Source of the DNA: Gammaproteobacteria bacterium
GTDB taxonomy: Bacteria > Pseudomonadota > Gammaproteobacteria > Steroidobacterales > UBA11654
Reading direction: 5' to 3'
Assembly (NCBI GenBank): GCA_029941465.1
Contig: JAPYQN010000006.1
Coordinates: forward strand, 1-56,416
DNA: 56,416 nt
Both the position numbers and the translations under genes were made by a program. Below are positions 50,638-56,416 of this stretch, piece after piece; position 1 is the stretch's first letter; every line of letters begins with the position of its first letter. The notes under the pieces are model-generated. The model did no database searches and was not told the origin of the DNA. It worked only from the letters and a program-made list of their open reading frames with translations.

Positions 50638-50736
50638 TATTTAATAGTATTTTTTAACTGATAATATATATTACCAGTAAGTAATGAGGTTAATAAGAAA
50701 TACTATATTTCTCATTTCTGTGAAATTAGATTTATG

Positions 50737-50796
50737 ATCGTTCATTCACTCTGTATTGACGGTGAACGGAAGTAGACAATAAAGTCGAAGGAACGC
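50737..50796 (+). promoter_or_regulatory. Glutamine-I (glnA-type) riboswitch aptamer
   Basis: The leader of the glutamate dehydrogenase gene holds the conserved blocks of the glnA RNA motif in order: CGTTCA at 50739-50744, CGGAAGTAG at 50766-50774 and CGAAGGAACGC at 50786-50796. Three stems form: P1 CGTTC (50739-50743) with GAACG (50791-50795); P2 TTCAC with GTGAA around a 12-base loop (50745-50765); and P3 GAC (50774-50776) with GTC (50783-50785). I compare with the consensus from memory. Known members bind L-glutamine and occur mostly in cyanobacteria and marine metagenome sequences, ahead of nitrogen genes. I found no clear promoter in the 50638-50735 interval. Confidence 0.85.
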
Positions 50797-50827
50797 TCTT
50801 AACCACTCTAAATGTAGAGTTAGGAGG
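50796..50827 (+). promoter_or_regulatory. Expression platform: hairpin covering the gdh ribosome binding site
   Basis: Immediately 3' of aptamer stem P1, CTCTTA (50796-50801) can pair with TAGGAG (50821-50826, one G-T), and ACTCTA (50805-50810) pairs perfectly with TAGAGT (50815-50820) around the loop AATG. The result is one long hairpin with a 3-base bulge on the left side. It buries AGGAG of the Shine-Dalgarno AGGAGG (50822-50827), 5 bases before the ATG at 50833. TTAACC (50799-50804) could alternatively pair with GGTTAA at 50688-50693. There is no run of T after the hairpin, so translational control is more likely than termination. Confidence 0.65.
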
Positions 50828-50832
50828 AAATT

Positions 50833-52233
50833 ATGGCTAATTCAAAAGAATTTTTAAATTCTGTAAATCAGATGTTTGACAAATCTGCCAAACTGATTTC
50901 ATTACCAGAAGACTTAGCAACAAAAATAAAGTTAGCAAACTCAACTTATACGGTAAATTTTGGTGTTAAATTAAGAAATAAGCTGCATACTTTTAAAGGT
51001 TTTAGGTGCGTTCATTCTGAACACAATGAACCAGTCAAAGGAGGTATTAGATACTCATTAGATGCATCACAAAATGAAGTTGAAGCCTTAGCAGCCTTAA
51101 TGTCATATAAATGTTCACTGATGGATTTACCCTTTGGAGGAGCAAAAGGAGCATTAATTATAGACCCCAATGCTTGGAAACGAGACGAATTAGAAAAAAT
51201 TACTCGGAGATTCACTTATGAACTTGCTAAAAGAGATCTGATACACCCCTCACAAAACGTGCCTGCTCCAGATATGGGAACAGATGAGAATGTTATGGCA
51301 TGGATTGCTGATGAATACAGACGACTTAATCCAACTGAAATTGACTCACTTGCTTGTGTAACGGGTAAACCGATTTCAAAAGGAGGAGTTCACGGGAGAA
51401 CTGAAGCAACTGGTAGAGGAGTATATTACGCTATAAATGAATTTCTAAGCTACCCAAAAGACTGTAAAAGAATAGGACTTTCTCCTCATATTGAAGATCA
51501 ACAGATTATAATTCAAGGTTTTGGTAATGTTGGTTATTATGCAGCAAAATTCCTCTCAGAAGATGGTGCAAAAATTATTACTATCATTGAGAAAGACGGT
51601 TCAGTGGTAAATGAAAAAGGAATTAATATTGAATCATTAAAAAAATACTTTGATAAAAAAAGAACATTTAATGGTTATGATGGGTTCACAACAACACGAA
51701 GTAGATTCCTAAGTAAAAAATGTGACATATTAATACCGGCTGCAATAGAGAATGTTATCAATAAGAATAACGCGAATAATATTAAATCTAAATTAATTGT
51801 AGAAGCCGGGAATGGGCCCGTAACTGCTGAAGCAGATGACATTCTTCAAAAAAGAGGTATTGTTGTTATCCCTGACTTTTATGCGAATGCTGGTGGAGTG
51901 ATTGTGTCGTACTTTGAATGGGTAAAAAACTTATCAAAAATGCGATACGGATTAATGCAAGAAAGAGAAGAAGAAAAAAGACAATCTAATTTAGTGTCTG
52001 CCTTAGAGTTAATGACAGATAAGAATTTTCCAAATGAGTTGAAAGGTAAAGTTATAAAGGGTTCCACTGAATTAGACTTAGTTAGATCAGGACTTGAAGA
52101 AAAAATGAGAGAAGGTTATAGCAACATCCACGAAAAGTTTCATTCAAACAAGAAAATTAAAGACCTTAGAACTGCCGGTATGGTTATAGCCATAAGAAAA
52201 ATAGCTGATGCCTATAGTTATCTTGGAATTTGA
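50833..52233 (+). CDS. Glutamate dehydrogenase (Glu/Leu/Phe/Val dehydrogenase family)
   Basis: 466 residues; ATG 50833 has AGGAGG 5 bases upstream. Catalytic motifs: PVKGGIRYSLDAS at about 69-81, LPFGGAKGALIIDP at about 98-111 with the active Lys, PAPDMGTDENVMAWIADEY at about 144-162, and a Rossmann domain with IIQGFGNVGYYAAKFL at about 224-239. It interconverts glutamate with 2-oxoglutarate plus ammonia; the RocG/GudB-like type suggests NAD+ and a catabolic role, but the cofactor is not proven by sequence. It is first in an operon with P5C dehydrogenase, ornithine aminotransferase and CtlX, and lies behind the glutamine riboswitch. Confidence 0.93.
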   Translation: MANSKEFLNSVNQMFDKSAKLISLPEDLATKIKLANSTYTVNFGVKLRNKLHTFKGFRCVHSEHNEPVKGGIRYSLDASQNEVEALAALMSYKCSLMDLPFGGAKGALIIDPNAWKRDELEKITRRFTYELAKRDLIHPSQNVPAPDMGTDENVMAWIADEYRRLNPTEIDSLACVTGKPISKGGVHGRTEATGRGVYYAINEFLSYPKDCKRIGLSPHIEDQQIIIQGFGNVGYYAAKFLSEDGAKIITIIEKDGSVVNEKGINIESLKKYFDKKRTFNGYDGFTTTRSRFLSKKCDILIPAAIENVINKNNANNIKSKLIVEAGNGPVTAEADDILQKRGIVVIPDFYANAGGVIVSYFEWVKNLSKMRYGLMQEREEEKRQSNLVSALELMTDKNFPNELKGKVIKGSTELDLVRSGLEEKMREGYSNIHEKFHSNKKIKDLRTAGMVIAIRKIADAYSYLGI

Positions 52234-52273: not shown

Positions 52274-53857
52274 ATGACTCACCTATCGAAGTTTGCAACC
52301 GTTGATCCATTTAACGAAATGAACGAAGAGAACCCCGGAAAGTGTCAAAATCTAGTCAGTGGTCAATGGAGAGATGCAGCTAATTATTTTGATAATGTTC
52401 CTGATCCCATTAATGGTGAGAGTTTTATACAGATTCCAAACACACAAAATGTTGATGATTTTATAGAAAACCTGGCTAGCTGTCCTAAAAGTGGTTTACA
52501 CAACCCTTTAAAAAATGTGGAACGCTATGTGATGCTTGGAAATGTTTGTGCTAAGGCTGCTGAAGTTATGAGAGATAAAGAAGTCGAGGATTTCTTTGTT
52601 CGTCTAATTCAAAGAGTAATGCCAAAAGCTGATAATCAATGTTTTGGTGAAGTAAAAGTTACCAGGACATTTCTTGAAAACTTTGCAGGTGATGGCGTTC
52701 GTTTTCTAGGCAGAGGGTTTTCAAACCCAGGGGATTACGTAGGACAAGAATCTTCTGGCTATCGATGGCCATATGGCCCGGTAGTTATTATTGCTCCCTT
52801 CAATTTTCCTTTAGAAATCCCAGGTCTACAATTTCTGGGGGCTGTGTTTATGGGAAATCGACCACTCATTAAATCAGCTACCACCGTCGGTGTTGTCTTT
52901 GAGCAATTCTTACGCTTACTTATTTATTCAGGCCTACCAGCAACAGACGCTGATATGCTGCATTGCAGTGGATCGACGATGGGAAATTTGGTTAAAAATT
53001 CCAGTAGTAACATTCGAATGCTTCAATTCACCGGCTCTTCAGGAGTTGCTGAGCAATTAGCTCAAGACATGAATGGTCGAATCAGAGTTGAAGATGCTGG
53101 GTTTGATTGGAAAGTGATTGGACCAGATTACAGCTCAGAGTGGGAAGATTACGTTGCATGGCAATGCGATGAAGACGCTTACAATGCATCAGGTCAAAAA
53201 TGCTCAGCCCAAAGTATTCTCTTTGTTCATGAGAATTGGACAGATCATCTAATGCCAAAATTAAAAACACTTGCGGAGCGAAGACGACTGGATAATCTAA
53301 GTATAGGACCGGTGCTCACTTGGAATAATAAAGAGATGCGGAATCACATAGATGGTTTACTTGAAATACCAGGTGCAAAGCTTCTTTTTGGCAATGAAGA
53401 ACTTGAATCACATAATATACCGAGCGTCTATGGGTCACTTAAACCGACGGCAGTAGAGGTTCCAGTTGAGCAGTTAATGACAGAGCATTTTGACCTTATT
53501 ACCACTGAGGTATTTGGACCTGTTCAAGTGATTGTCAATTATAAGCATGACCAATTACCTATTATTCTCGAGACGTTAGAAAAGATCCCATTGCATTTAA
53601 CTGCAGCGGTGGTCAGTAATGATCCCCTCTTCCTACAGCAAGTATTAGGACTTACTGTCAATGGAACAACCTATGCGGGCATGAGGGCTAGGACAACTGG
53701 AGCTCCTCAAAACCACTGGTTTGGACCTGCTGGCGATCCCAGATCAGCTGGCATTGGTACACCAGAAGCAATCATCAATACTTGGAGCGGACATAGAGAA
53801 ATTATAAAAGACATTGGCCCCATTGATACTGATTGGAGCACTCCTGAGTTAGGCTAA
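52274..53857 (+). CDS. 1-pyrroline-5-carboxylate dehydrogenase, ALDH12 (plant-type) subfamily
   Basis: 527 residues. It is an aldehyde dehydrogenase with catalytic Cys in SGQKCSAQS (about residue 313) and the very distinctive segments GYRWPYGPVVIIAPFNFPLEIPGLQ (about 161-185), VEDAGFDWKVIGPD (about 275-288), YVAWQCDEDAYNASGQKC and TTGAPQNHWFGPAGDPR near the C-terminus. These match plant mitochondrial P5CDH (ALDH12) far better than bacterial PutA or RocA. It oxidises glutamate-5-semialdehyde to glutamate with NAD+. It lies 40 bp after the dehydrogenase gene and overlaps the aminotransferase gene by 1 bp (TAATG). Confidence 0.88.
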   Translation: MTHLSKFATVDPFNEMNEENPGKCQNLVSGQWRDAANYFDNVPDPINGESFIQIPNTQNVDDFIENLASCPKSGLHNPLKNVERYVMLGNVCAKAAEVMRDKEVEDFFVRLIQRVMPKADNQCFGEVKVTRTFLENFAGDGVRFLGRGFSNPGDYVGQESSGYRWPYGPVVIIAPFNFPLEIPGLQFLGAVFMGNRPLIKSATTVGVVFEQFLRLLIYSGLPATDADMLHCSGSTMGNLVKNSSSNIRMLQFTGSSGVAEQLAQDMNGRIRVEDAGFDWKVIGPDYSSEWEDYVAWQCDEDAYNASGQKCSAQSILFVHENWTDHLMPKLKTLAERRRLDNLSIGPVLTWNNKEMRNHIDGLLEIPGAKLLFGNEELESHNIPSVYGSLKPTAVEVPVEQLMTEHFDLITTEVFGPVQVIVNYKHDQLPIILETLEKIPLHLTAAVVSNDPLFLQQVLGLTVNGTTYAGMRARTTGAPQNHWFGPAGDPRSAGIGTPEAIINTWSGHREIIKDIGPIDTDWSTPELG

Positions 53858-55092
53858 TGAAAAGTTCCAACCAACGGAATTTTATAGATAAAGAATCCAT
53901 CTTTGGACCCGACAACTATAAACCCTTGCCAGTAGTTTTATCGAGAGCAAAAGGAGTTTGGGTCTGGGACGTGGATGGTAAAAAGTATTTGGACATGATG
54001 TCAGCATATTCTGCTGTAAGTCATGGTCATTCCCACCCTGAGCTACTGAAAGTGCTCCATGAACAATCAAGCCAGTTAGCACTCACCTCTAGAGCATTTT
54101 ATACCGATACCCTTGGCCCCTACCTAGAGACAATTACTTCGCTCAGTAACTTTGATATGGCATTACCAATGAACTCAGGTGCAGAAGCTGTCGAAACAGC
54201 AATCAAGGCCGCTAGACGATGGGCTTATCTGTCCAAGAAAATTGAATCGGATAAAGCTGAAATTATTGTTGCTGATGGTAATTTCCATGGCAGGACCACC
54301 ACGATCATCAGCTTTTCTAGTGATGCTAACTCAAAAAATGACTTCGGGCCGCACACACCTGGATTTGTGTCCGTCGAATTTGGCTCAGCTAAAGCTATCG
54401 AACAAGCCATCAATGAGAACACCGCAGCTGTATTGATCGAACCAATCCAAGGTGAAGGTGGAATTATAGTGCCTCCTGAAAACTTCCTTCCTGACGTGAG
54501 GGAAATATGCTCTAAAAACAATGTCTTGATGATTCTCGATGAAGTTCAATCCGGTTTAGGAAGAACAGGTAAAATGTTTGCCTTCCAGCATTCTAATATT
54601 CAACCTGATGGCCTGATCCTAGGAAAGGCGCTTGGCGGTGGATTTATGCCAGTATCTTGCTTTCTAGCATCCAAAGAAGTAATGCAATGGCTAACACCTG
54701 GCTCTCATGGTTCGACATTTGGTGGTAACCCTCTTGCTGCGGCAATAGGAAAAAGATCCCTAGAGTTACTTGAGGAAGAGAACTTAATTGAAAACAGCCG
54801 GGTGCTGGGAGATTTTTTCAAAAATGCCCTGATCGACATCAAAAGTAATGTGATTAAAGAAGTCAGGGGTAAGGGCCTTTGGATTGGTGTGGTCATAGAT
54901 CCAAACTATGTTTCTGGTAAAGATTTGTCTAAATTACTCCTCAAAGAAGGCATTTTATGTAAGGAAACCCATGAGACTGTCATCCGATTCGCTCCTCCAC
55001 TGGTGATCACTAAAGAGGAAATTGAGTGGGCACTAGAGATCATAACTACAACACTTACCCAGATTGAAAACAAGGCTAATATCTCAAAATGA
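53857..55092 (+). CDS. rocD: Ornithine aminotransferase
   Basis: 411 residues, class III PLP aminotransferase. Motifs: NYKPLPVVLSRAKGVWVWDVDGKKYLDMMSAYSAVSHGH in the N-terminal 20-58 region typical of OAT, MNSGAEAVETAIKAARRW at about 105-122, ILDEVQSGLGRTGK at about 226-239 and PLP-lysine in LILGKALGGGFMP at about 252-264. It transfers the delta-amino group of ornithine to 2-oxoglutarate, giving glutamate semialdehyde (P5C), the substrate of the preceding gene's product. It overlaps ctlX by 4 bp (ATGA). Confidence 0.93.
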   Translation: MKSSNQRNFIDKESIFGPDNYKPLPVVLSRAKGVWVWDVDGKKYLDMMSAYSAVSHGHSHPELLKVLHEQSSQLALTSRAFYTDTLGPYLETITSLSNFDMALPMNSGAEAVETAIKAARRWAYLSKKIESDKAEIIVADGNFHGRTTTIISFSSDANSKNDFGPHTPGFVSVEFGSAKAIEQAINENTAAVLIEPIQGEGGIIVPPENFLPDVREICSKNNVLMILDEVQSGLGRTGKMFAFQHSNIQPDGLILGKALGGGFMPVSCFLASKEVMQWLTPGSHGSTFGGNPLAAAIGKRSLELLEEENLIENSRVLGDFFKNALIDIKSNVIKEVRGKGLWIGVVIDPNYVSGKDLSKLLLKEGILCKETHETVIRFAPPLVITKEEIEWALEIITTTLTQIENKANISK

Positions 55093-55982
55093 ATGGTCAA
55101 TCCACCAATCATGTGCTGCTCATTAGACCTGTTGAATTTTATTGTAACCAACAAACCATTGAAACAAATCATTATCAGAGTGTCGATGATGATAAATCTC
55201 ATTCTGAGATCTTGGAAGATGCCCTTATAGAATTTGATAATTTTGAAAAAAATCTCTTAGAAAACAATATCAAAGTTACAACTCTAAGAGGTCAAGAAGG
55301 TTGTCCCGATAACATTTTTCCAAATTGGGCAGTAACTTATGATGATAAATCAATGCACTTATTTAGTATGCTCGGTGAAAATAGAAGACTTGAAAAATCT
55401 GATGAACATATTGCTTTTCTTAATAAACAGTATCGAACCACATCAGATTACAGTGCATACGAAAATCAATCCCAGTTTCTAGAAGGAACTAGCAGTCTGG
55501 TTCTTGATAGAGTAAATCGTAAAGCCTATATGGGTATTTCAACAAGATCTAACGAAGAGCTAGCGATTAAATGGGCAAAAGAACAAAATTATGAATTAAT
55601 TGTGTTTGAGACTCAGAGTCATACAGGTAATCCTATTTATCATAGTGATGTAATGATGTACATTGGGACAGAATTAGCTGTAGTTTGCAGTGAAGCAATA
55701 AAAGTTGGAGCTAATAATGTTATTAATGAACTGTCTCACACTCATCGAATACAGGAAATTTCTAGTCAACAATTATTAGACTATTGTGGCAACTGTATCG
55801 AAATTAAAGACACTAATAATAACCTGAATCTAATCATGTCGACTTCGGCTTTTGAGAGTTATGATTCTTCACAACTTAATGTTTTAAATGAGCATTTCAT
55901 CAAAATTATACATTCTGACCTTAAAACCATTGAAAAATATGGAGGCGGATCGGCTCGATGTATGATTATGGAACTTTTTTAA
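55089..55982 (+). CDS. ctlX: CtlX-type amidinotransferase-fold hydrolase (probable citrulline hydrolase)
   Basis: 297 residues of the guanidine-modifying (pentein) superfamily. Core motifs: CPDNIFPNWAVTYDD at about 77-91 (canonical D-x-x-FxxN), FLEGTSSLVLDRVNRKAYMG at about 135-154, GNPIYHSDVMMYIG at about 182-195 with the catalytic His, and a C-terminal GGGSARCMIMELF with nucleophile Cys291. CtlX members are linked to citrulline use as nitrogen source, hydrolysing citrulline to ornithine. Its 4-bp overlap with rocD fits: product ornithine is handed to the aminotransferase. Arginine deiminase is the alternative, but length and last motif favour CtlX. Confidence 0.83.
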   Translation: MNGQSTNHVLLIRPVEFYCNQQTIETNHYQSVDDDKSHSEILEDALIEFDNFEKNLLENNIKVTTLRGQEGCPDNIFPNWAVTYDDKSMHLFSMLGENRRLEKSDEHIAFLNKQYRTTSDYSAYENQSQFLEGTSSLVLDRVNRKAYMGISTRSNEELAIKWAKEQNYELIVFETQSHTGNPIYHSDVMMYIGTELAVVCSEAIKVGANNVINELSHTHRIQEISSQQLLDYCGNCIEIKDTNNNLNLIMSTSAFESYDSSQLNVLNEHFIKIIHSDLKTIEKYGGGSARCMIMELF

Positions 55983-56007: not shown

Positions 56008-56416
56008 TTATCGAAGAATCTTCGCGTATAACTCCGGGTCAGTATCGCCTTCTGTAGAAAACATTAATACTGTCGATGAACTATCAAGCTCGAGGAGATT
56101 TTTCATGGGAGTGTATCTATTATTGGTACAGACCTCATGAATAAAACCGAGTGGCACCGCCCCACTCTCACCGGAAACAATCAACGGATCGCCTTGATTA
56201 GGATTTGCGAACAATCGCATGCCTTGGAAGGCTAATTCATCGTCACAAACAGAAAAGACATCAGTTACTTGGGTAATAATATCCCAAGCAAGAACACTTG
56301 GTAATCCACATGAAAGTCCTGCCATGATAGTATTCAATTCTTGGGTTAAATGTGGTTGTCGATCACCGATTTTTATCGAATTAAAAAAACAAGCAGCACC
56401 GGTGGGTTCTAACAGT
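56008..56416 (-). CDS. Diaminopropionate ammonia-lyase, C-terminal part (truncated by window edge)
   Basis: About 135 residues are visible; the frame stays open to the right edge, reading LEPTGAACFF, then TIMAGLSCGLPSVLAWDII, ANPNQGDPLIVSGESGAVPLGF and the C-terminal STEGDTDPELYAKILR. These match the C-terminal part of YgeX, a PLP-dependent fold-type II enzyme that converts 2,3-diaminopropionate to pyruvate and two ammonia. The SGESGA loop is the PLP-phosphate Gly/Ser-rich site. It is convergent with ctlX (25 bp gap). The TTG at 56337 is an internal Leu. It extends the ammonia-releasing amino acid theme of the locus. Confidence 0.85.
   Translation of the reverse strand, partial: LLEPTGAACFFNSIKIGDRQPHLTQELNTIMAGLSCGLPSVLAWDIITQVTDVFSVCDDELAFQGMRLFANPNQGDPLIVSGESGAVPLGFIHEVCTNNRYTPMKNLLELDSSSTVLMFSTEGDTDPELYAKILR

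Follow-up and report, generated by a model that had tools for sequence, protein, structure and literature searches.

A canonical glutamine-I riboswitch occupies the 5′ leader of an operon encoding glutamate dehydrogenase (GDH), a probable P5C dehydrogenase (P5CDH), ornithine aminotransferase (OAT) and a CtlX-like hydrolase in the window analysed here, a 56,416-nt stretch of a gammaproteobacterial contig. This riboswitch likely controls the translation of the operon and turns it ON in response to glutamine, where ligand binding, the sign of the response and the substrates of the last enzymes are inferred. Glutamine is the usual nitrogen-status signal in bacteria, and we know of no RNA circuit by which it controls the breakdown of glutamate, ornithine and probably citrulline; in this genome-streamlined bacterium, glutamine is apparently read by an RNA to govern just these steps. 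The switch in the window belongs to a known class and has a new target, with a mechanism that is well supported but inferred; the more novel result is a circularly permuted form of the aptamer in sister lineages.

The aptamer lies at 50737-50799 on the forward strand, where a cmscan search of the whole window matched RF01739 with 57.9 bits against a gathering score of 35 (E 3.2e-10). The alignment spans the full model length (positions 1-53) without broken pairs, and the match is the sole one to RF01739 in the 1.39-Mb assembly. The initial annotation had recognized a glnA-type leader from its motifs, and the covariance model bears this out: CGTTCA, ACGGAAGTAG and CGAAGGAACGC sit where it had located them, and P1, P2 and P3 can all form, as it had claimed. 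P1 consists of the 5′ strand CGUUC (50739-50743) and the 3′ strand GAACG (50791-50795); the P2 stem-loop at 50745-50766 pairs UUCAC (50745-50749) with GUGAA (50762-50766), and the P3 stem-loop at 50775-50786 pairs GAC (50775-50777) with GUC (50784-50786). The conserved core of CGGAAGUA and GAAG is likewise present. The solved structure of the glutamine-I aptamer shows the ligand in contact with the C1:G59 pair and the level of G2:C58 and stacked between the junction residues G22 and G23, with the G23-C60 pair as a linchpin (PMC6698751, PMC11477058). All these residues are kept in the window: C50739/G50795 and G50740/C50794 correspond to C1/G59 and G2/C58, G50768 and G50769 to G22 and G23 (numbering from PMC11477058), and C50796 to C60. 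Score and contact residues confirm, as far as sequence can, a genuine member of the glutamine-I class; in the absence of binding data, glutamine binding remains an inference. The glutamine-II (Downstream-peptide) riboswitch RF01704 recognizes the same ligand in a nearly identical pocket (PMC6698751), but it has a pseudoknot architecture, and Rfam places the window element in RF01739, not RF01704. The only promoter-like match on the forward strand upstream of the aptamer (50709-50738) has a weak consensus, and its start would fall inside P1.

The ATG of GDH (ELFV family, 466 aa, 50833-52233; PF00208/PF02812) follows C60 after 36 nt, and three tightly packed genes on the same strand lie downstream: the aldehyde dehydrogenase and probable P5C (glutamate semialdehyde) dehydrogenase (527 aa, 52274-53857; PF00171), OAT (411 aa, 53857-55092) and the CtlX-like hydrolase of the DDAH superfamily, possibly acting on citrulline (297 aa, 55089-55982; PF19420). 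Citrulline is broken down via ornithine and glutamate semialdehyde to glutamate, and further to 2-oxoglutarate and ammonia. The four enzymes together could cover this entire route, with the substrates of the aldehyde dehydrogenase and the hydrolase being inferred. The operon content proposed in the initial annotation stands for GDH and OAT, which are supported by profiles (for OAT, TIGR01885 with 533.8 bits against an NCBIfam cut-off of 378.4). The names P5CDH and CtlX rest only on family and neighbourhood, because matches to P5CDH are weak, with the gene adjoining pdxJ in relatives, and the CtlX profile NF046062 scores 278.5 bits, below its cut-off of 334. At the end of the window, a gene of the diaminopropionate ammonia-lyase family on the reverse strand (56008-56416) converges on the CtlX end of the operon, and beyond the window the next gene is, by eye, of the agmatinase/arginase family (L262, 7327-8298). 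These converging genes suggest a larger amino-acid catabolic island.

Between aptamer and start codon, a predicted hairpin at 50796-50826 (-10.4 kcal/mol) pairs five of the six bases of the Shine-Dalgarno (SD) sequence AGGAGG (50822-50827). Its anti-SD strand starts at nucleotide 60, with zero gap after P1, so that C50796 is both the linchpin partner of G50769 and the first base of the hairpin, where it pairs with G50826. This flush architecture is common to most other short-leader glutamine switches: in 131 leaders, the distance from the aptamer to a start codon with SD is below 50 nt, and of these leaders 108 have nucleotide 60 paired (P>0.5) and 105 have the SD paired to the first 15 nt; mean SD pairing reaches 0.67 in genome loci compared to 0.27 for shuffled spacers, near-identical copies being counted separately in these statistics. 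Transcriptional attenuation was rejected, as the forward strand of the leader contains no terminator-like site.

Nucleotide 60 covaries with its partners in both structures. In 295 distinct aptamers, positions 23 and 60 form G-C (234), C-G (55) or G-U (6) and no other combination, while the predicted hairpin partner is G for C60 in 160 cases, with 74 unpaired, and C for G60 in 54 of 55. The G23 set was mostly fetched by a pattern demanding C60; unbiased scans for the other three bases gave 13 stretches for position 60, with only T among those counted, and 69 for position 23, all C23-G60 among those counted. The 55 C-G cases do not represent 55 independent events, because the phage sequences are related. 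A switch between two mutually exclusive pairings would require a single base to stay matched to both of its partners, and the covariation supports such a switch. Most work on the expression platform of the class concerns cyanobacteria; that nucleotide 60 covaries with both its linchpin and its hairpin partner offers a concrete mechanism for the class, including a three-base-swap prediction.

How would glutamine act on the leader? At low glutamine, the hairpin at 50796-50826 would mask the SD. Binding of L-glutamine would complete P1 and pair G50769 with C50796 in the linchpin, removing the closing base of the hairpin, which would thereby be weakened and allow ribosomes to start. A nitrogen-rich cell with high glutamine would consequently turn on the oxidation of glutamate, ornithine and probably citrulline, and low glutamine would spare them. 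When nucleotide 60 is blocked in the window, the predicted fraction of open SD rises about 40-fold, from 1.1e-4 to 4.1e-3. Forcing the aptamer to form was uninformative for predicting the sign, with the SD paired in every ensemble. Because thermodynamic folds retain the SD hairpin in the free and aptamer-forced states alike, only a modest effect is predicted, which depends on a single base pair together with the covariation. The initial annotation had left the direction of control open. We favour, but have not shown, a translational switch with glutamine as the ON signal, since the covariation at nucleotide 60, the effect of blocking it and the reported ON behaviour of cyanobacterial relatives (PMC6316151) all point this way; there are no expression or binding data. 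Like the window element, the cyanobacterial gifB/DUF4278 switches feature a short leader and an SD hidden by a hairpin starting at nucleotide 60, and these are activated by glutamine (PMC6316151). In contrast to the gifB switch, the window switch resides in a proteobacterial host and targets metabolic enzymes rather than a GS-inactivating factor.

The main rival to the ON reading has the opposite sign: P1, once stabilised by glutamine, would stack end-to-end on the SD hairpin and lock it, turning the operon OFF in keeping with a nitrogen-scavenging logic. That P1 and the hairpin abut gap-free and form together in the predicted fold would suit such coaxial stacking, but nucleotide 60 can pair in the linchpin or in the hairpin, not in both, and the fact that it covaries with either partner speaks for competition between the two pairings. 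The same aptamer also precedes ammonium transporter, GS and GOGAT genes, which are expected to be repressed by glutamine; however, those members with short leaders that have been tested in published work act as ON switches (PMC6316151), and the leaders of gltB and gltD are longer, with an additional pairing further downstream by which the sign might be reversed there. An OFF switch seems unlikely to us on this evidence, but it deserves to be kept in mind.

Several further features of these leaders deserve mention. In the window, a competing fold of the 5′ half is predicted in the absence of ligand, between 50739-50746 and 50761-50768, with the P1 5′ strand against the P2 3′ strand plus ACG (CGUUCAUU / GGUGAACG); it is a possible anti-aptamer fold and counts against the favoured reading. 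In the gltB and gltD leaders (L035, L037), a second, longer pairing of the 3′ arm of the hairpin is predicted after the P1-flush hairpin, which could be the source of an inverted sign for biosynthetic genes. About 60 aptamers in natural order from viral loci (L371-L462) carry C23-G60 instead of G23-C60, and the SD-hairpin partner is swapped too (GGAAA...UUUCC). The sequence CACTCTAAATGTAG, which forms the P2 apex in phage and SAR86 switches (L039, L128, L202, L212, L213, L216, L235, L242, L245), lies within the SD hairpin of the window (50805-50819), and the window P2 has its UUCAC/GUGAA stem in common with the switches carrying it; CACTCTAAATGTAG in the SD hairpin may be the remnant of a second tandem copy. 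We discarded the idea that CTCTAAATGTAGAG derives from a mobile repeat: in viral contigs, the exact 16-nt form sits in unrelated contexts, none near a switch.

Comparison with relatives indicates how the switch came to the operon. In seven relatives of the same genus with pdxJ, the aldehyde dehydrogenase gene is directly divergent from pdxJ and has a plain leader; five of these were examined further, and in all of them OAT and then CtlX follow. An RF01739-type aptamer is absent from the P5CDH-OAT-CtlX operon in all five, ruling out an ancestral riboswitch at the operon in these relatives. A GDH 74% identical to that of the window is found in five relatives, at an unrelated locus without an aptamer, and no GDH match was found in the other four. 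Because relatives keep P5CDH-OAT-CtlX without a switch and have GDH elsewhere or unmatched, GDH and riboswitch appear as an addition: in the window's species, they were, by this comparison, together put at the head of an older operon. The synteny shared with relatives also argues against a contaminant contig. The arrangement of GDH and switch is seen in only one genome, a draft of 92% completeness.

The restriction to one species, with relatives running the P5CDH-OAT-CtlX genes without an aptamer, could also mean that the intact aptamer arrived recently as a passenger and does not regulate the operon. We give this little credence: the aptamer core is intact, and so is an SD hairpin typical of the class in form and spacing, a combination that a passive relic would not retain.

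Is GDH a target of glutamine switches elsewhere? Pattern scans for the canonical core retrieved at least 119 stretches in named genomes and at least 120 in viral contigs; these are a sample, and the scan of genome contigs may omit the window's own records. The initial annotation had assigned the class mostly to cyanobacteria and marine metagenomes, but it is not confined to those: among the matches listed, the hosts comprise cyanobacteria, SAR86, SAR116, other alphaproteobacteria, Pelagibacteraceae, marine gammaproteobacteria and phages. The first genes after these switches, again among the matches listed, encode ammonium transporters, GlnII glutamine synthetase, glutamate synthase subunits, circularly permuted ATP-grasp proteins, Gcw_chp porins, a TonB receptor and DUF4278-type small proteins (labelled by their YRG motif, not by a Pfam scan). 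Searching the same loci by tblastn with the four proteins of the window revealed no GDH, P5CDH or CtlX among the matches listed, and for OAT only two weak matches (25-29% identity) in loci whose switch precedes other genes. Targets described in the literature consulted are PII, GS, GOGAT, Amt and DUF4278/gifB, and a full-text search, judged mainly by titles and abstracts, yielded no report of a glutamine switch paired with glutamate dehydrogenase. The window element thus belongs to a class of riboswitch already known but has a target new to it, since none of about 240 other loci (among the matches listed) encodes GDH, and the novelty of the link suspected in the initial annotation holds in these loci and in the literature consulted. 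Compared to other RF01739 members (glnA, type 1), sequence, three-way junction, ligand-contact residues, linchpin and flush SD hairpin are alike, but the target is a GDH-headed operon for ornithine and citrulline catabolism instead of DUF4278/gifB, GS, GOGAT, PII or Amt. This unusual gene context could be taken to indicate that the aptamer is a variant specific for a different pathway metabolite (glutamate, ornithine or citrulline), which is very improbable given that every residue named as a glutamine contact in the solved structure is unchanged.

Canonical RF01739 elements over the cut-off are rare in the genome samples: 3 of 369 genomes in the class sample, the window's genome included, and only the window's own genome in the order (1 of 396) and phylum (1 of 339) samples. 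As a separate observation, canonical switches in marine alphaproteobacteria and SAR86 (L022, L049, L067, L074, L135 and similar) precede genes for circularly permuted ATP-grasp proteins (PF14403), a target not found in the literature consulted on the class.

In sister lineages, the glutamine sensor very probably exists in circularly permuted form, in front of glutamine synthetases and TonB receptors, with glutamine binding again inferred. The starting point was sub-threshold RF01739 matches of 30.4-30.5 bits in two relatives of the genus. The permuted element is present in 12 distinct copies in 6 of 10 genus genomes (L315-L326; for example L324, 1497-1543 on the forward strand) and in four genomes of a second genus from another family (L357 at 1501-1547, L360, L361, L362; 46.5-48.1 bits with the permuted model, also gap-free over its 47 positions), amounting to 10 genomes in two genera of the order. 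The genus copies read UGAGA-CGCAAGUA-RGC-GGAA-GCU-GAAG-AAACG-(GAGU, GAUU or AAGU)-CGUUU-A-UCUCA, with the exception of one loop change. Their elements follow the order P2-3′, CGCAAGUA, P3, GAAG, P1-3′, 4-nt loop, P1-5′, A, P2-5′, which corresponds to a glutamine aptamer whose two ends have been moved to the middle of P2, with P1 as a closed hairpin and P2 as the open end.

To score this arrangement, we used a covariance model (R1) made from 40 canonical aptamers permuted on paper, excluding sister-genome sequences, and a matched model in canonical order (R2). R1 matches the 12 genus copies with 47.5-49.4 bits over all 47 positions, without gaps and with every pair formed, while R2 reaches at most 24.5 bits on the permuted elements. 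For canonical loci scored with both models, the relation is reversed, with R2 above R1. R1 also scores on canonical loci because the core is common to both forms and tandem arrays present the halves in permuted order; matches of this kind were not accepted as permuted aptamers. Nor are the permuted elements the junction of two tandem canonical copies: no canonical copy was found flanking them, and tandem arrays score higher with R2. Unconstrained RNAalifold predicts the AAACG/CGUUU hairpin inside UGAGA/UCUCA, that is, P1 closed and P2 open, and places P3 in another register. The copies are nearly identical, and no pair in the set is changed on both sides. All copies have C at position 23, and all have G at position 60 except the two tandem copies of one genome, with A instead; the C23-G60 combination is also found in 55 natural-order phage aptamers. 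In two genomes, the permuted copies are arranged in tandem pairs (L316, L322).

The genes 3′ of the permuted element, identified by sequence motif and a GS family search, encode GlnII and GSI glutamine synthetases and members of the TonB receptor family; canonical switches of other marine gammaproteobacteria also precede GlnII and a TonB receptor (L091, L042). No permuted copy was found in the window's own genome. Natural circular permutations described in a 2023 paper include hammerhead, twister, 5S rRNA and group II introns, with no riboswitch named (PMC10085705). Their rearrangement is like that of the sister-genome elements, but they are not riboswitches, and text searches of the literature found no description of a natural circularly permuted riboswitch. 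If the permuted form binds glutamine, it would be the first natural circularly permuted riboswitch that we could trace, extending natural circular permutation to riboswitches. It probably arose from a tandem pair of canonical aptamers whose outer halves were lost. Finally, in five viral loci (L327, L329, L331, L344, L346), a second CGUUCAUUAC follows the canonical aptamer after 3-4 nt, providing the P1 3′ strand with two alternative partners; this second CGUUCAUUAC is possibly an expression platform and an intermediate on the way to permutation.
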